Shown here piece by piece: positions 5,668 to 55,816 of a stretch of DNA of 56,268 bases. Source of the DNA: a virus. Under the pieces are notes generated by a model. That model was not told where the DNA came from. It made no database searches and saw nothing but the letters and a program-made list of their open reading frames with translations. Numbering within the stretch: the first letter of the stretch is position 1; each line of letters starts with the position of its first letter. Position numbers and translations under genes: made by a program. The DNA is taken from positions 1 to 56,268 of IMG/VR virus record IMGVR_UViG_3300036832_001266; one strand, written 5' to 3'.

Positions 5668-6762
5668 TCACACGAAGGCGTTGTCCTTAGCGTAGAAATC
5701 CTCGAGCGCAACCTGTTTGTGGAAGCCAAACTTGTCGTCGATGAAGTTGTTCGCGATCTGGCCCAAGATGAGAAACTTCAGCGAGCCGCGTTTAATCTTG
5801 GTGTCGCGGTAATTGGCGTCCTTGGTGAAATTGAAGATCAGCTCCTTTGCCGGCCACTTGTAGCTGCGCCATCCGTTGGTGAGCCGCTGCTCGGTGTTGC
5901 CCATACTCCAGAGCTGAAAGCCCTCCGTGTTGTAGAACGGCGCATAGAACTTGCGCAGATACGTTTCGGAAAGCAGGCGTGCGTTCCGCTCCGCCGTGTA
6001 GTTTAGCATTCGCATATAAACCGTCTGCCATTTCAGCACGAAATTGATCCACCAAAAATGATCGTAGTTTGTGCTTAAAGTAATGGGCGCGTTGTCGCAC
6101 AGGCGCTCGAACAGTTCGACGTAGCGCGGTGCATCATCACCCATTCCTTCTCCGCTCAATCCTTCTACAAAAAACGCCGCGAAAAGGTTCCGGTTGTACG
6201 GCCCGCAAACAGCATCCGCGCCAAAACGATTGATCGCCGGCGCGATGATATCGGAACCGAAGAGTTGATCGTTGTGCTCACCATTCACGAGCACGACCGG
6301 CGTCCCGATAATGTAGGGGAACAGCATTGCCGACTCGCGACGCAGCTGTCCGCGAATGTACTTTTGATAGAACAGCGGATATTCGGCAATCGACTCTTCC
6401 GACATCAGCACGACCAGCCGCTCTTTCTGCGCCGGGCTCGCGTTCTTGAGCAGCGACACCAGAAGACAGGTGCTATCAATACCACCGGACCAGAATGCAT
6501 AGAGCCAAGTGTCTAGTCTTTCCGCGCGCGCGAGCAGCTGCTGAGCACGCTCGTTACACAACTCCTCGTAAGTCTTGGTGAACATACGCATCTGCGGTAG
6601 CGGGAACATCGAGCGCATCCGCACGGGAAACTTGAGCACGCCGCTACGGTCAACGGGCGCAGTGGTCGGGCCATACACTTTGAAATACGAAAGAAAATGC
6701 TTGATGCACGGAGAATCCTGATATCTGGCAAGGTAGTTTGCGTTGTAGAACGTGAATCTCAA
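5668..6762 (-). CDS. Asparagine-synthetase-like PP-loop ATP pyrophosphatase
   Basis: 364 aa from a TTG start at 6762. The TTG overlaps the upstream TGA (TTGA) and has CAGGAG about 8 nt upstream. The nucleotide loop is FWSGGIDSTCLL (residues 90-101), the SGG.DS signature of N-type ATP pyrophosphatases. Downstream, LVNGEHNDQLFGSD (158-171) matches the GEG.DELFGG motif of class B asparagine synthetases. There is no N-terminal Cys2 glutaminase domain and no QueC-type Cys cluster, so this is a synthetase domain alone. The family activates a carboxylate or carbonyl with ATP and adds an amine. Sitting inside a coupled virion operon, it might modify a virion or cell-envelope component, which is inference. 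The PP-loop fold is well supported; the substrate is unknown. Confidence 0.8.
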   Translation of the reverse strand: MRFTFYNANYLARYQDSPCIKHFLSYFKVYGPTTAPVDRSGVLKFPVRMRSMFPLPQMRMFTKTYEELCNERAQQLLARAERLDTWLYAFWSGGIDSTCLLVSLLKNASPAQKERLVVLMSEESIAEYPLFYQKYIRGQLRRESAMLFPYIIGTPVVLVNGEHNDQLFGSDIIAPAINRFGADAVCGPYNRNLFAAFFVEGLSGEGMGDDAPRYVELFERLCDNAPITLSTNYDHFWWINFVLKWQTVYMRMLNYTAERNARLLSETYLRKFYAPFYNTEGFQLWSMGNTEQRLTNGWRSYKWPAKELIFNFTKDANYRDTKIKRGSLKFLILGQIANNFIDDKFGFHKQVALEDFYAKDNAFV

Positions 6763-7412
6763 AACGCCGATCTCCTGTACATGTCCCAACGAAAGTCTTT
6801 GAGGATGGTGTCTAGCCCATCTTCGGCGTCCCGCACCAAGTTGAAATACTTCAGCCGCAGCAGTTCGCTTTTCAGGAGGCCATCATCGTCTAGCTTCGCT
6901 TTGAACAATATTTCGTCAGCCGCAGCACGCAGCGTGAGCCCGGCAAAATCAGCATACTGCAGCACGTAGGGATACAGCAGTATGTCGATCTCTGGATAGC
7001 CCAGGTCCTTGAACCGCTGCGCCTGTGTCTTTTTGGTTTGGTAGATGGTCTCCTGCATGATGAGGCCGCGCCAGAGCGGATAACGCGCGACCGACAATTC
7101 GTAGATGATCTCCTGAAGCGCTGAACACTTTCTAACCGCTAACGCTGCGCGCCGCTTCAGCTCATCGGTGAGCAGCTCCTTTGCTGTCGGCGAAAAAAGC
7201 CGGGCTGTTTCGTGCCAGGTCCAATTTGGGTAGGCCTTATGAGCTTCATTCGCGAGTATGAAATTGCTTCGGTAGTTGGGCCAGTTGACGCCGTGCCATT
7301 CCTCAGCCTCAAGCGGCTGTGACCGCGCAAGAAACGAGATGATGTTCGGCTGTGTGCTCAAAGAAAGCAGCGCCGATGTCGAAGCATCGACGAGCGCGCT
7401 GAAGGGCGTCAT
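6759..7412 (-). CDS. Late-operon protein with AADEI-type helical C-terminus, function unknown
   Basis: 217 aa, mostly helical. The C-terminal part ADFAGLTLRAAADEILFKAK followed by LLKSELLRLK resembles a segment widespread in phage virion-operon proteins (AADEI-, then R..G...R..I..A). It overlaps its neighbours at both ends (ATGA with the upstream gene, TTGA with the PP-loop gene), so the three are translationally coupled. I do not recognise a catalytic motif. It may be the partner of the PP-loop protein or a minor virion protein. Confidence 0.72.
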   Translation of the reverse strand: MTPFSALVDASTSALLSLSTQPNIISFLARSQPLEAEEWHGVNWPNYRSNFILANEAHKAYPNWTWHETARLFSPTAKELLTDELKRRAALAVRKCSALQEIIYELSVARYPLWRGLIMQETIYQTKKTQAQRFKDLGYPEIDILLYPYVLQYADFAGLTLRAAADEILFKAKLDDDGLLKSELLRLKYFNLVRDAEDGLDTILKDFRWDMYRRSAF

Positions 7413-7807
7413 TTCACATAGCCGCCCATCCAGTAGGCCAGACCGCCGAGCCAGAAGCGGCGCAGCATGTCACGCTGCATCGGGTGCATAGCGTTGAGCC
7501 GCCTCTGGCCCTCCATCAGGCGCTGGATGGTCGCGATGTAGGCCGGGTCTTGATAGCCCTGCGGCATCGGCATCATGGGCTCCAGGCGTACGGGGTCCTG
7601 CGCCGGCGGCAGATCGGGATCGCGGTTGTGGTCGACCAGGCCGCCGACCGGGCCGCCCTCGGCACGACCGGCGCGGCGCTGGGTCTCATAGGCGATCGCA
7701 AGCGCCTGCTCGCGCGATTGCACATGCGGGGACTTGCCGACCTCGCCCATCAGGGTGCGGATGTTCTGCTGACGGGCGGCGTCGCTACCCGATTTGATCA
7801 GAGGCAT
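7409..7807 (-). CDS. Small virion-operon protein with MPLIKSGS / AIAYETQRRAGRAEGG N-terminus
   Basis: 132 aa. The first 55 residues, MPLIKSGSDAARQQNI then REQALAIAYETQRRAGRAEGG, match a short N-terminal module common in phage and environmental viral proteins (MPLIKS..KKA...NI...K...QA.AIAY...R, DUF6496-like). The rest has Pro/Met-rich and aromatic segments ending in LGGLAYWMGGYVK. A GGGGTGA Shine-Dalgarno lies inside the end of the upstream gene, with a 23-nt overlap. The function is unknown. Confidence 0.72.
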   Translation of the reverse strand: MPLIKSGSDAARQQNIRTLMGEVGKSPHVQSREQALAIAYETQRRAGRAEGGPVGGLVDHNRDPDLPPAQDPVRLEPMMPMPQGYQDPAYIATIQRLMEGQRRLNAMHPMQRDMLRRFWLGGLAYWMGGYVK

Positions 7808-8210
7808 CTTCGATCACCCCATCTGGGCCGATCTTGATCCAACCAGTGTTGTGCGCCTCCGGCTCGGGATATTTCTGCGGCGGCGGTATGTCCTTTGCCG
7901 GCTTCTCCATCAGCACGAGGCCCCCGTCCTCGATCCAATAGGTATTCGGGGCTGTCTGCAGGTGCAGGTGTCGTTTTGCCGGCACCGGCTTCCAGCCAAC
8001 CTCGATCATCTGCGCGATGTTGCCCAGGTCCGGCTCATCGGCCGTGATGAAAATCCGCTTCCACTGGTAGACCATGCCGAGCGGTGGTTCCAGCTTCATC
8101 GCTATGGCAGTTACTGTCGGCTCGGGGAGCACCTCCACAGCTGCTACTTTAGCAGCCGGAATAGCCGCGGCCGCGATGCCGAACATCTTGAGAATCTCAC
8201 GACGGTCCAT
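7785..8210 (-). CDS. Virion-operon protein with Tat-like N-terminus and GW.PV...LMEKP domain
   Basis: 141 aa, start supported by GGAGGAGGACA before ATG. The N-terminus MDRREILKMFGIAAAAIPAA looks like a twin-arginine signal (RR-x-I/F-LK plus a hydrophobic Ala stretch ending AKVAA). The central part IAQMIEVGWKPVPAKRHLHL and then GGLVLMEKPAKD matches a conserved phage module of the form GW.PV..(15-25)..G(L/M).LMERP. The same module occurs in the gene at 23876-24466. A Tat-type leader on a virion-operon protein is unusual and could instead be a membrane anchor. The function is unknown. Confidence 0.72.
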   Translation of the reverse strand: MDRREILKMFGIAAAAIPAAKVAAVEVLPEPTVTAIAMKLEPPLGMVYQWKRIFITADEPDLGNIAQMIEVGWKPVPAKRHLHLQTAPNTYWIEDGGLVLMEKPAKDIPPPQKYPEPEAHNTGWIKIGPDGVIEDASDQIG

Positions 8211-35940: not shown

Positions 35941-36074
35941 CGCCGCGTTTCCCGTGAAACCTGCAGCCCAGCCGCCGCTAAGCGCTTGGCATACCGCCGA
36001 CGCGCCTTCTTGGCCGCCGCTACCCGCCGCCGAAGCTCCGCCGCACGCGACCTCTGCACCAACCGCTTGCCCAT
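35937..36074 (-). CDS. Arg/Lys/Ala-rich small protein (45 aa)
   Basis: MGKRLVQRSRAAELRRRVAA, then AKKARRRYAKRLAAAGLQVS, ending RETRR. About 40 % Arg/Lys, probably a single basic helix. The stop overlaps the start of the next gene by ATGA, which supports it as real. Nucleic-acid binding is inferred from charge. Confidence 0.5.
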   Translation of the reverse strand: MGKRLVQRSRAAELRRRVAAAKKARRRYAKRLAAAGLQVSRETRR

Positions 36075-36087
36075 CGCTTAAGCCCCC

Positions 36088-36282
36088 TCACCAGCCATAC
36101 AAATCACGGTGCCGCTCACGCATCCGCCGCACCAAAAGCCCCAACAAATACTCGTTCACACCCTCCACCACCGCAATATAATCCGCCATCGTCTTGCCGC
36201 CCGCCGCATCCTCAATGCACAACCGGGCCGCCTGCTCCTCTATCGACGGATAAGGCCCCGAACACAAACACCGCATCGCCAT
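36088..36282 (-). CDS. Small hypothetical protein (64 aa)
   Basis: ATG 36282 with AGAGGGGG seven to eight bases upstream. The product (MAMRCLCSGPYPSIEEQAAR, LCIEDAAGGKTMADYIAVVE, LVRRMRERHRDLYGW) is helical with two Cys near the start. Its start codon lies in the same CCATGG palindrome as the start of the plus-strand gene at 36281, so the two are divergent and overlap by two bases. Confidence 0.55.
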   Translation of the reverse strand: MAMRCLCSGPYPSIEEQAARLCIEDAAGGKTMADYIAVVEGVNEYLLGLLVRRMRERHRDLYGW

Positions 36283-36649
36283 GGAAATCCCCCTCTGCAA
36301 GCTCTGCAACACCCGCCACTGGACCCGCATCTGCCCAGGTATCACCCCCTCGCACGGCTCACCCCGCGTCGAAACCAAACCCCTTGCCCCCACACATGCC
36401 CCCTCCAAACGCCGCGCTCCGCTGATCCCAGCAAAACCAATCACCCATATCACCCCCATCCGCTACACCATCACTAAAGAAACCGTTACCAAAACTACCC
36501 CCACCCCACCAGAAAAGCCACCCCTTTCCGTAACCCCAGCCGCCCCGCCAAAGAAAAAAATCGGCCGCCCACCCAACCCCAACAAACCCTCCAATGCCGA
36601 AAAACAACGCGCCTACCGCGCCCGTAAAAAAGCCCACCACAGGCCTTGA
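36281..36649 (+). CDS. Zn-finger/AT-hook-like basic protein ending NAEKQRAYRARKKA
   Basis: 122 aa. The N-terminus MEIPLCKLCNTRHWTRICPG has a CxxC...C finger-like arrangement. The middle is Pro/Thr/Lys-rich, and the end KKKIGRPPNPNKPSNAEKQR then AYRARKKAHHRP carries an AT-hook-like GRP core and the NAE.QR.YR.RKK motif that ends many small phage DNA-binding proteins. No Shine-Dalgarno is visible before the ATG, which is shared head-to-head with the minus gene. The coding strand is extremely C-rich. Probably a DNA-binding regulator, by inference. Confidence 0.6.
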   Translation: MEIPLCKLCNTRHWTRICPGITPSHGSPRVETKPLAPTHAPSKRRAPLIPAKPITHITPIRYTITKETVTKTTPTPPEKPPLSVTPAAPPKKKIGRPPNPNKPSNAEKQRAYRARKKAHHRP

Positions 36650-36981
36650 TGGCGCAACCTGCTGGTCCGGTAAACGACGTCTGGCTAAACTCGAATGCTA
36701 TAGTTTTGAAGCCATGGAAGAAAGCGCCCCAGCAAAATCCCCAGCAAAATCCTGCCATTAGGTGGTCAGAACGAAAACAAGCCACCCTCACCCCTCTACC
36801 ACCAAACACCCGCAATACCGACAATACCCCCACCCCACATCACCTACCCTCGCACGGTGCCCAAATAACCTACACCGGAGCCACATCAGTATTGTCCATA
36901 ACCCAATCATATCAGTACCTTACCACCCAGGAGCGAAAAAATGCCAGAGGTGTCCAAATTGTACAAAACTGTCCAAACTAA
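36649..36981 (+). CDS. Doubtful ORF following the AT-hook-like gene
   Basis: 110 codons from ATG 36649, which overlaps the upstream TGA. The product (MAQPAGPVNDVWLNSNAIVL, Asn/Pro/Thr-rich middle) has no recognised features. A second frame over 36650-36760 reads GKRRLAKLECYSFEAMEESA and is at least as protein-like, so the true gene structure here is uncertain. Confidence 0.28.
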   Translation: MAQPAGPVNDVWLNSNAIVLKPWKKAPQQNPQQNPAIRWSERKQATLTPLPPNTRNTDNTPTPHHLPSHGAQITYTGATSVLSITQSYQYLTTQERKNARGVQIVQNCPN

Positions 36982-37214
36982 AATCCCAAGCAATTTCAAT
37001 ATGATGGGCGCCAGGAGCGAAAAAAGACGTGGCATTTGGAGGAGGGGCCAAGGGTAAAAAAAGTTTTTCTTTCCGCCCCCCCCCCCCCTCGCGGTGGGGT
37101 GCCCCAGCGTTGAGGCATGGGAGCCGAGGCCTCGATCACCGAATCGCGAATCGCGAATCCGAAAATGCACAATGTGCAGAAACCCCATCCGCCTCCATAC
37201 CTTGATGTTATTGG
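36982..37214. other. Gene-free stretch with C13 tract, GAATCGC repeats and a palindrome
   Basis: No convincing gene. It contains a run of 13 C (37076-37088), three head-to-tail GAATCGC-type repeats (37141-37161) and the palindrome TGCACA-A-TGTGCA (37166-37178). The 14-bp sequence CCAGGAGCGAAAAA occurs at 36928-36941 and again at 37011-37024. Just upstream of this region in late-transcription order is the TerS-like gene. Possible regulatory or origin-like site; the C tract may also be a sequencing or phase-variation hot spot. Confidence 0.5.
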
Positions 37215-46672: not shown

Positions 46673-47473
46673 ATGAAAGCAAAATCTCTACTGCTTGCTA
46701 CGGCTTTGGCTTCGGTCGCGTTCGCGCCCGCCGCTAAGGCTGACCTGATGATTGCCGAAAGCACGTTTGCCGATCTTGGGGCAACCGGCTTCGGCAATGC
46801 TCCTCGCCTCTTGACGTTGCAGAACAACGGCTTCGAGGCAGGCGGAACGGTTGCCGGTGCAGGAGGGACCACCCTCTTTACCGGCCCCACGGGTGCGGCT
46901 TGCACCGCAGCCACATGTCCAGTCGGTGAACCACGGACTGGAACCAACGAGAGCTTGGTTGTCTCGTTGAATAGTCTTGGCTGGACTTCGGGAAGCCACG
47001 TTGGCATCGGCCTCGATACCAACGAAACCGGCAACGTCGTTGGTCTCACGTTCGATACCTTGGTGCTGAAAATCTACAATTCAGCCGGGACCGTTCTTGG
47101 GACTTTCAACGGCGATGGTCCAGTCAACATCACCGCCGCCCAACTAGCTCAACAGCAGGGCAACGGGAACAGTGTGTTCGACATCATACTGTCTCCCGTT
47201 GAGCAAACGCAGTTCAACGCTATCATCGCGGCGAACGGCGGGACAGCAAACGGTCTATTCGAAGGTCTCAGTGCGTCCTTCGGATGTCCTAGCACCATCA
47301 GCCCTTGCTTCGGAAGTACCGATGGTGCGGAGTCGTTCCTAGGCTTCAACCAAGCAGCGGTCCCCGGTCCAATCGCGGGTGCTGGCCTGCCGGGTTTGAT
47401 CGGCCTTGGTCTTCTTGGTCTGGCCAAATTGCGCCGTCGCAAGAATTGGTGGCAGTATAAGCGGACGGCCTGA
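46673..47473 (+). CDS. Exported protein with PEP-CTERM-like sorting signal
   Basis: 266 aa. A Sec signal peptide (MKAKSLLLATALASVAFAPA, cleavage near AKA-D), a beta-rich body (FDTLVLKIYNSAGTVLGTFN; paired Cys in CTAATC and CPSTISPC), and a C-terminal tripartite signal: VPGPIAGAGLPGLIGLG, a hydrophobic helix and RRRKN. This is the Rhizobiales variant of PEP-CTERM, normally read by an exosortase that anchors or secretes proteins in exopolysaccharide-producing bacteria. It is a bacterial-type gene in the middle of a phage early arm, with its own terminator downstream, so recent acquisition from a host is likely. Its role in infection is unknown. Confidence 0.82.
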   Translation: MKAKSLLLATALASVAFAPAAKADLMIAESTFADLGATGFGNAPRLLTLQNNGFEAGGTVAGAGGTTLFTGPTGAACTAATCPVGEPRTGTNESLVVSLNSLGWTSGSHVGIGLDTNETGNVVGLTFDTLVLKIYNSAGTVLGTFNGDGPVNITAAQLAQQQGNGNSVFDIILSPVEQTQFNAIIAANGGTANGLFEGLSASFGCPSTISPCFGSTDGAESFLGFNQAAVPGPIAGAGLPGLIGLGLLGLAKLRRRKNWWQYKRTA

Positions 47474-48157: not shown

Positions 48158-48667
48158 TTACTTAAGTTTTCCACGCAGGACAGCAGTTGTCAGACACGAG
48201 ATATCCTCCAACTGATCCCGAAACATGAACTTCGTGCCGGGATCAAGATCGGGAGGGGGGGCGGTATGATGCTCACGGATGAATCTCTGTTTCGTTACCC
48301 ATCCCAAGATCAGAACAATGGGATCATTGTGGAAGAACCAATCCCGAGCACAAACGCCGACAAGGATGTCTGCCGGGCTTTTCGCAAGAAAACGATTCTT
48401 GGTCACCGGCCAAATTAGAAACATGGTCTTTGATCCCTTCACGTCGATCAGCTTCTTCCGGTAGTTGACGTCCCATCCGCGGTCGCATTTACGCCCCCAA
48501 TCAAGCGTCTTGGGATCACGGCCAATATAGAGGCAGAATGCACATTCGCAGACCTTGCCCATCGCCTGATGACGCACGCTCTTGTCGATCCCGGGCCGCG
48601 CAAGGGCACGGGATTTCTCCTTTTGCTTTTTGGCGTAACCCAGAACCGAGCGCTCGCCCCATCCCAT
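48158..48667 (-). CDS. PD-(D/E)XK-like nuclease next to a DNA methyltransferase
   Basis: 169 aa from ATG 48667 (TAAGGA four bases upstream, inside the last codons of the methyltransferase). Its core, CDRGWDVNYRKKLIDVKGS then KTMFLIWPVTKNRFLAKSPA and DILVGVCARDW, has the arrangement G.D......(I/L)DVK of a PD-(D/E)XK nuclease: acidic residue, hydrophobic strand, D-V-K, then a conserved strand. A CAFCLYIGRDP segment precedes it. Adjacent to a methyltransferase and an RHH protein it could be a restriction-like or host-degrading nuclease. The catalytic assignment is by eye only. Confidence 0.62.
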   Translation of the reverse strand: MGWGERSVLGYAKKQKEKSRALARPGIDKSVRHQAMGKVCECAFCLYIGRDPKTLDWGRKCDRGWDVNYRKKLIDVKGSKTMFLIWPVTKNRFLAKSPADILVGVCARDWFFHNDPIVLILGWVTKQRFIREHHTAPPPDLDPGTKFMFRDQLEDISCLTTAVLRGKLK

Positions 48668-48674
48668 CGATTCC

Positions 48675-49778
48675 TTAATCCATTCCAGCGGGACGTCGAC
48701 CTCGACGGGTACTGCCGGTAGGAGCAGCCTCGAATCCCACACAGGTCCAGCCCTCCATTTGTCCGCGCGCAAATAATTCGATCTTGGTTTCGGGCGTGTC
48801 GAAATACGGATACATCTGCTCGATTGCCTGCCGGATTTCCGGCGGCTTGGCACTGTGCTTAGTACGTCGATGGCAAAACACCGACGAAAACAACTTGACC
48901 GGCTTTGGCATATCGCCGCGCGTACCGGCGAGCAGCACCTCATGCCGATTGCGAAACAGCAGCCCGGTGCCAATCCGCATTTTGTCCCATATGGCATGGG
49001 TTTTGTAGGTGAAGCCCCAGCTTTCAATGATGTCGATGGCACGAAAAATATTCGATGATGTACACCACAAGAACAGAATCGCGTCTTTGGCTGCCAGATC
49101 GCTGATTGATTGTTTACCGATCTTAAATGCCGCAATCTCTTCGTCCGACATCACCGGATAATGATCCTCCGGCATGCGATGCGATTCGTGGCCCTTTGGC
49201 GTATAGGTCTCGAACGTCCACGGTGGGTCGGCGTAAATCAGCGGGAAAGGCCCGAGCCTATCGGACGCAATCCTTACTTTGGCCCTGGTCGCAATCTTCT
49301 GATGCCGCTCCTCCCGACGCTCCTTGTACCAATAGGGCGATGCCTCCTCGATCAGCCACTCCATCGTCGGCAATATCTCTTGCTGTTTGGCCTCGGCGTA
49401 GACCTTGCGGCGCTCACCAATCGGCAGATAGCTCGCGCGCTGGCACTCGATAGCGCGGGCCTTTTGGAGATTAAGCCGCAGAAGCTCAGCCGTGAAACTA
49501 GGAGCGCTCCGCTCCTCATTTTTCTTTGGCCGGCCGGTTTGACCCCGCAGCATCTTCCGCAGCATAACGCCAAGACTGCAGCGAGCATCAAGATAAAGCT
49601 CGCGCACTGGTCGAAGATGCTCAGGGCGATAGAAACCGGCGCTCTTAAGGGCCGCTTCCAGGCCAGCGGTTGCAGCGCCAACTTGGATCACCTGCTCGGG
49701 CTCTTTGGCTGCCATCAGCCCCCGCCGCAACGCCGCGATCTGCCTCGGTAGCTCGGCAACAATGATCTGCTTGTTCAT
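48675..49778 (-). CDS. MT-A70-family DNA N6-adenine methyltransferase
   Basis: 367 aa. The catalytic motif IV is PLIYADPPWTFETYTPKG (DPPW at 184-187). Further MT-A70 elements are ILFLWCTSSNIFRAIDIIES, WGFTYKTHAIWDKMRIGTG and ETKIELFARGQMEGWTCVG. The N-terminal ~170 residues are helical with a basic RGQTGRPKKNEER hinge, as in ParB-linked phage MT-A70 enzymes. It likely protects phage DNA from host restriction or controls its own cassette. It is encoded between an RHH protein and a nuclease-like protein. Confidence 0.9.
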   Translation of the reverse strand: MNKQIIVAELPRQIAALRRGLMAAKEPEQVIQVGAATAGLEAALKSAGFYRPEHLRPVRELYLDARCSLGVMLRKMLRGQTGRPKKNEERSAPSFTAELLRLNLQKARAIECQRASYLPIGERRKVYAEAKQQEILPTMEWLIEEASPYWYKERREERHQKIATRAKVRIASDRLGPFPLIYADPPWTFETYTPKGHESHRMPEDHYPVMSDEEIAAFKIGKQSISDLAAKDAILFLWCTSSNIFRAIDIIESWGFTYKTHAIWDKMRIGTGLLFRNRHEVLLAGTRGDMPKPVKLFSSVFCHRRTKHSAKPPEIRQAIEQMYPYFDTPETKIELFARGQMEGWTCVGFEAAPTGSTRRGRRPAGMD

Positions 49779-49792
49779 CTAGTTGTTCTCGT

Positions 49793-49996
49793 TCACCGGT
49801 TGCGCCGAGCTTCATGTCGCTGTTCCTCCAGCTCCAGCAGCGCCAGCTCGATACCCCTCGCAATTAGGTCGGTCTGCGACGGGCCCGATGGCGGCCATTG
49901 CCGCCGGCCGCGTGTCACCTGGCGCAGTCGCTTAAGTAGTTGCATCGGTAACCGAAAGGAAACCTGGGCCCGGTTTTTTTCCGCTTGATTGGTCAT
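49793..49996 (-). CDS. Ribbon-helix-helix regulator of the methyltransferase cassette
   Basis: 67 aa. AQVSFRLPMQLLKRLRQVTR is a beta strand plus first helix, SQTDLIARGIELALLELEEQ the second helix: an Arc/CopG-like RHH fold with an insertion between them. It is the first gene of the minus-strand cassette, so it probably controls it; its partner operator was not identified. Confidence 0.75.
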   Translation of the reverse strand: MTNQAEKNRAQVSFRLPMQLLKRLRQVTRGRRQWPPSGPSQTDLIARGIELALLELEEQRHEARRNR

Positions 49997-54896: not shown

Positions 54897-55088
54897 ATGC
54901 CGCTGATATGCGACTACAGCAACTGCGTTAACGTCATACCCAAGAGCGGGTTCAGGTTGATGGTGACAGAAATCGCCGACGACAACCAGGTCACCGAGGT
55001 AGTTTTCTGTTCCTACGAGCACGCGATCCTGTACCTTGAGAGGCGATCCAGCGACGGTGAAATCCTGCGCGCGCAATATGGCACATGA
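54897..55088 (+). CDS. Small early protein (63 aa)
   Basis: LICDYSNCVNVIPKSGFRLM, VTEIADDNQVTEVVFCSYEH: three Cys and a His in a C....C ... CS..H arrangement, like a small treble-clef or zinc-binding fold (compare phage proteins carrying C..C..........FCS..H). ATGA overlap with the transporter gene. Confidence 0.58.
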   Translation: MPLICDYSNCVNVIPKSGFRLMVTEIADDNQVTEVVFCSYEHAILYLERRSSDGEILRAQYGT

Positions 55089-55816
55089 TTGCCAGCGCGG
55101 TCGCCATAGTCTGCCTTGGCCTTGCTAAGGGCGGCTTCGTCGGACTTGGTCTGCTTGCCACACCAATACTGATGCTCTCATTGCCACCGCTCGACGCAGT
55201 TGCGGTGCTCATCCCCGTCATGCTGGCCCAGGATATCTTCTCGGTGTGGGCTTATCGACGCGAGTACGATCCCCGCAACCTCCGCATCATGCTGCCGGGC
55301 GTTCTAATCGGCATAACCGTTGCGTGGCTCTTGCTTGTGGAGATAACGCACATTCGACTACTCGTGGGGCTAACACTGCTTTGGCTCGTAATCACGCAGA
55401 CATTCGGTCCATCATCGCACCGATCTTCCCCCGTCGTTGGAACCTTTTGGGGCGTCGCGTCGGGCTTCGCTGGTCTCGTCTCAAACGCCGGTAGCATAGG
55501 CTTTCTGATGTACGTATTTCCACAACGCCTTGCGCCCCGCGTCTACGCTGGGACCATGGCTATCTTCTTTGCCGTGGTCGATCTGGCGAAGCTGCCCCCG
55601 TTCATCGGAATGAGACAATTCACACAGGAAAATCTTGAGCATTCGGCGTTCCTGATTCTGCCGGCCCTGGCAATGAACTGGATCGGAATCATTCTCGTCC
55701 GTCGCATCAACCCTCGACTGTTCTACCGACTAGCAACCGCCCTGGTCTTCTGCATAGCCGTCATCTTGATATGGCAGGATTGGAGTCAATCTGACGGGGC
55801 GCCGAGGACCGAATGA
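55085..55816 (+). CDS. TauE/SafE (TSUP)-family membrane transporter
   Basis: 243 aa with about seven or eight transmembrane helices. LAKGGFVGLGLLATPILMLS is the signature of the first TSUP half, PLDAVAVLIPVMLAQDIFSV the following helix, and GTFWGVASGFAGLVSNAGSI the matching segment in the second half (G...G...GL...GS). The usual ~250 aa length is complete. TSUP proteins export or import sulfite, sulfoacetate and related anions. In a phage this is an auxiliary gene; the substrate cannot be told. Overlaps both neighbours (ATGA), so it is a real member of the early operon. Confidence 0.85.
   Translation: MIASAVAIVCLGLAKGGFVGLGLLATPILMLSLPPLDAVAVLIPVMLAQDIFSVWAYRREYDPRNLRIMLPGVLIGITVAWLLLVEITHIRLLVGLTLLWLVITQTFGPSSHRSSPVVGTFWGVASGFAGLVSNAGSIGFLMYVFPQRLAPRVYAGTMAIFFAVVDLAKLPPFIGMRQFTQENLEHSAFLILPALAMNWIGIILVRRINPRLFYRLATALVFCIAVILIWQDWSQSDGAPRTE

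Follow-up and report, generated by a model that had tools for sequence, protein, structure and literature searches.

What are three minus-strand genes doing within the plus-strand early region of a phage genome? The window, by which we mean the whole 56,268-base stretch of DNA analysed (record IMGVR_UViG_3300036832_001266), carries portal, terminase, helicase and ERF genes, and the trio is flanked by plus-strand genes, with a helicase at 41.9-43.5 kb on one side and exonuclease/ERF genes at 50.9-53.5 kb on the other. On the minus strand, an RHH-like ORF of 67 aa (49793-49996) is followed by an MT-A70 methyltransferase gene of 367 aa with a DPPW motif (48675-49778) and by a nuclease-like ORF that ends at 48158 and runs either from an ATG (48158-48667, 169 aa) or from a GTG (48158-48742, 194 aa). 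All three ORFs are coding, since their codon-position GC matches the pattern of the window's other genes and since homologues of the methyltransferase and the nuclease lie adjacent and overlapping in another phage, L021, with 43% identity over 343 columns for the methyltransferase and 50% over the aligned part for the nuclease. The layout is as originally predicted.

The middle gene is clearly recognisable as encoding an adenine methyltransferase of the MT-A70 family, the partner of the third gene. Its PF05063 domain scores 72.4 bits against a curated cut-off of 23.9, which bears out the earlier assignment, and the predicted catalytic domain (residues ∼176-351) contains the motif ADPPW and is preceded by an N-terminal region (residues ∼1-170). 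The DPP of this motif is invariant in seven relatives. The L021 enzyme (6749-7825) has DPPT in place of the DPPW seen in the others, and the MT-A70 gene of a further locus, L077 (4908-6030), is split over two frames, possibly by a sequencing error.

The nuclease gene probably starts at the GTG at 48742 and not at the ATG at 48667. The first helix of the AlphaFold2 model spans residues 19-37 with high confidence and the ATG, which corresponds to residue 26, falls inside it, while residues upstream of the ATG are also present in the nuclease homologues. The GTG start gives a 68-bp overlap with the methyltransferase gene. The 169-aa ORF of the original prediction thus exists, but the protein is likelier to have 194 residues, and our residue numbers follow this longer form.

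The AlphaFold2 model, built with six sequences (pLDDT 86.2, pTM 0.84), has an αβββαβ core in which the elements are ordered helix (E66), strand (D91), strand (D100 and K102), strand, helix and strand. The four predicted catalytic residues are identical in all 12 aligned homologues, as are L109, W111 and F154. Model and alignment together thus contain what defines the PD-(D/E)XK enzymes, an alpha-beta-beta-beta-alpha-beta core with an acidic, an acidic and a D-x-K residue set, and the core that had been claimed from the motifs is found. The modelled fold supports a PD-(D/E)XK nuclease-like protein outside the curated families, and the invariance of the predicted catalytic residues argues for an active nuclease. 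No match was obtained in Pfam, NCBIfam, PADLOC, PHROG or PDB sequences and no named restriction enzyme or resolvase family was matched, in agreement with the earlier view that the protein is not an evident member of a known restriction family; tblastn of phage and plasmid records and scans of genome contigs also returned no relatives. In Foldseek searches of the PDB, the top matches were mostly PD-(D/E)XK enzymes (Hjc-type resolvases, DpnI, HincII and Eco15I), none of them at E<=0.001, whereas viral models gave 47 matches at this threshold (best E=5.5e-9). Nearly all of these are uncharacterised phage proteins, some are from pandoraviruses, and two are named restriction endonuclease. A remotely related phage family carrying EHWD...IDVKG motifs aligned to the nuclease with an HHalign probability of 85% over 73 columns, and its flanks, as fetched, showed no methyltransferase-like motif.

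The invariant residues also bear on a reading in which the MT-A70 enzyme works on RNA in a complex with its neighbour, whose nuclease-fold protein would serve for targeting or as an RNA-directed nuclease. METTL3 and other mRNA m6A methyltransferases are among the closest solved relatives of the methyltransferase profile, and for an MT-A70 enzyme of an E. coli prophage, methylation of 16S rRNA has been reported in complex with another protein of the phage (PMC10810198). That partner, however, is encoded upstream and is described as a winged-helix protein, unlike the window's nuclease, and a pure binding subunit would have no need of the residues kept in 12 of 12 homologues, so that we consider an RNA-directed complex improbable.

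How closely the two genes are tied together was assessed from their relatives. L021 came from a motif scan of viral contigs, and a scan with the methyltransferase profile then gave seven loci, one of which (L075) is L021 again and two of which (L076 and L078) carry the same ORFs. A related nuclease ORF overlaps the methyltransferase gene on its 3' side in L073, L074, L076 and L079, and L077 has a more divergent 3' candidate whose relation to the window's nuclease lacks statistical support. A wider methyltransferase scan added the pair in L080 and L083. In L081, a methyltransferase of the same subfamily is followed by a different gene with an acidic ESK motif, as judged by eye. Scans for the nuclease motifs, independent of the methyltransferase, gave L173 and L174, each with an MT-A70 gene directly upstream, and L169 and L178, in whose contigs, which may be incomplete, none of PF05063 (MT-A70), PF01555 (N6/N4), PF00145 (C5) and PF02086 (D12) was matched. 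Leaving out two repeats of known sequences (L166 and L179) and a truncated near-copy of L174 (L168), in 10 of the 12 homologous nuclease lineages the gene immediately 5' is an MT-A70 gene of the same strand, in most cases with overlap, a fraction that is biased upward because most lineages were found through the methyltransferase. The expected co-occurrence with methyltransferases is thus present, and, given the two homologues with no methyltransferase detected, the pairing appears to be frequent and not obligatory. Three of the nucleases (L021, L076 and L174) share an additional C-terminal segment in which Cys and His residues are conserved (GFVGYxxxGxxxHYCxCG...GxWFCxxHKP) and which the window's protein lacks.

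Among these relatives the nuclease diverges more than the methyltransferase (22-46% versus 46-73% identity). Restriction enzymes usually diverge faster than their methyltransferases. The two proteins co-diverge weakly (r=0.31, permutation p=0.067), and this, together with the two methyltransferase-less homologues, speaks for a reading in which the pair is early-region cargo carried by chance and lacks a common function. We find this quite improbable, since order, strand and mostly also the gene overlap are kept in 10 of the 12 lineages despite low identity.

The reading that we prefer, and to which we give an even chance, is that the MT-A70 enzyme and the PD-(D/E)XK protein are a phage-carried restriction-modification-like pair that spares phage DNA and cuts unmodified DNA. 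The methyltransferase would mark a specific sequence of the phage DNA by adenine methylation, and the product of the overlapping 3' gene would be an endonuclease that cuts DNA without that mark. Made early in infection, the pair would act on unmodified host DNA or on the DNA of competing phages, and genomes methylated in the previous round would escape cutting. In this scheme we infer DNA as the methylation target, the cleavage activity, the shared recognition site, the timing and the benefit. It is suggested by the invariant catalytic residues, which point to an active nuclease, and by the overlapping modification gene, which points to self-marking, on the background of the frequent linkage of an MT-A70 domain protein with a predicted nuclease fold. 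The stronger divergence of the nuclease also speaks for it, and the chlorovirus and marseillevirus systems (PMC7019647, PMC7253447) are precedents among viruses. Counted against it are the two lineages lacking a detected methyltransferase, the weak co-divergence, the absence of a match to any named restriction enzyme, the distant EHWD...IDVKG family with no methyltransferase-like motif in its fetched flanks and the prophage MT-A70 enzyme reported to act on 16S rRNA (PMC10810198). A modification-dependent, type IV-like nuclease is less likely, because the phage's own methyltransferase would then mark its genome for cutting.

Another explanation is that the nuclease serves phage replication or recombination as a structure-specific enzyme, beside a methyltransferase that either has a task of its own or assists it. 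In the PDB the nuclease most resembles the Holliday junction resolvase ST1444 (E=0.094), genes for recombination or replication are found near the pair, and of the two nucleases with no methyltransferase detected that of L169 is downstream of a helicase-like ORF, as seen by eye. We nevertheless think this explanation rather unlikely, and rank a resolvase role below restriction-modification because a separate RuvC- or RusA-like resolvase is encoded in five loci that carry the pair or its methyltransferase subfamily (L021, L073, L074, L076 and L077); it would also leave unexplained why a methyltransferase gene immediately precedes the nuclease gene in 10 of 12 lineages. The nuclease matches no resolvase family, and its resemblance to ST1444 falls short of significance.

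The first gene of the trio is a possible regulator. The only PHROG match of the RHH-like ORF is phrog_876, a transcriptional repressor (E=0.054), and no match was found in Pfam or NCBIfam; its sequence hints weakly at an RHH regulator. We searched for an inverted repeat that could serve as an operator upstream of this ORF and found none, scanning the region for promoters and terminators gave little above the level of shuffled sequence, and by eye no RHH-like gene stood next to the pair in those relatives that were inspected. Of the trio that was to be looked for in other phages, the methyltransferase and the nuclease do so but the RHH-like gene was not seen with them, and for the self-regulated circuit that had been proposed it is gene order alone that points that way.

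Several further features of the window and of L021 were recorded. Near the pair in both (window 46673-47473 and L021 9585-10430, plus strand) is a protein that, by eye, has a signal-like N terminus and a PEP-CTERM-like C terminus (VPGP/VPEP, a hydrophobic stretch and a basic end), for which the window's copy gave no Pfam or PHROG match. At the right end of the window, a plus-strand gene (55085-55816) encodes a TauE/SafE membrane protein (PF01925, E=2.5e-27), a cellular-type gene that is perhaps phage cargo or marks a provirus edge. Positions 36001-37000 have a GC skew of -0.45 and an AT skew of +0.33, far off the rest of the window.

The 3' neighbours of MT-A70 genes in ∼80 loci form several clusters, three of which, besides that of the window, carry acidic-x-K motifs of the PD-(D/E)XK type (VDEK/A9, EIK-D and VEVK). 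HMMs of these three clusters matched 26 times, in each case immediately 3' of an MT-A70 gene in fetched DNA, and not once in 0.61 Mb of loci picked regardless of methyltransferases; this is supportive and not conclusive, because the HMMs were built from methyltransferase neighbours and the VDEK HMM from 7 of its 12 members. The model of the VDEK/A9 family (L093 and relatives) has a pLDDT of 90.4, its best PDB resemblances are I-Ssp6803I and a RecU-type resolvase (E ∼0.01), and the family also looks to be PD-(D/E)XK. The EIK-D and VEVK families may be called PD-(D/E)XK-like from their sequence motifs alone. When compared as profiles, the other neighbour families showed no significant relation to the nuclease of the window. 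Small 3' ORFs with PD-(D/E)XK-like motifs were seen in L084, L086, L093, L096, L101, L114, L122, L125, L129 and others, for a count by eye of ∼27 MT-A70 loci with such a neighbour, and in L085 the 3' neighbour matches the MjaI restriction enzyme family below threshold. We tentatively suggest, as a possibility well short of an even chance, that phage MT-A70 enzymes are commonly paired with an exchangeable 3' partner belonging to one of several families of small PD-(D/E)XK-type proteins, an unrecognised class of restriction-modification weapons among so-called orphan methyltransferases.

Neither the nuclease family nor its pairing with MT-A70 enzymes was found in the literature searched, outside which most subscription papers fall. 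If the pair restricts DNA, this phage would carry a self-versus-other discrimination like that of bacterial anti-phage systems, many phage methyltransferases now counted as solitary may be accompanied by a nuclease that has gone unrecognised, and the small nuclease family would be a new one with a testable cognate methyltransferase.

The window and its relatives have, as in type II restriction-modification, adjacent genes for a methyltransferase and a PD-(D/E)XK-type nuclease; unlike in those systems, the nuclease matches no named restriction enzyme and two homologues have no detected methyltransferase. Restriction-modification encoded by phages is already known, and the reference list of PMC6536676 includes phage P1 and Sau42I of phage phi42, which we liken to the window's pair by description and not by sequence, as restriction-modification genes on a bacteriophage; to go by its title, Sau42I differs in being BcgI-like. 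The E. coli prophage enzyme is likewise a phage MT-A70 protein co-expressed with a partner, although its reported target is RNA and the partner is upstream and described as winged-helix (PMC10810198). A survey of jumbo phages described Mom-nuclease fusions predicted to spare phage DNA (PMC7824862), which also join a phage modification enzyme to a restriction-endonuclease-fold domain, but as one fused protein instead of two genes and with Mom acylation instead of methylation. Chloroviruses and marseilleviruses, viruses of eukaryotes that we liken to the phage pair by description, also encode a methyltransferase next to a nuclease, and there the restriction-modification systems have experimental support, with proposed roles in host DNA degradation in chloroviruses and in competitor exclusion in marseilleviruses (PMC7019647, PMC7253447).
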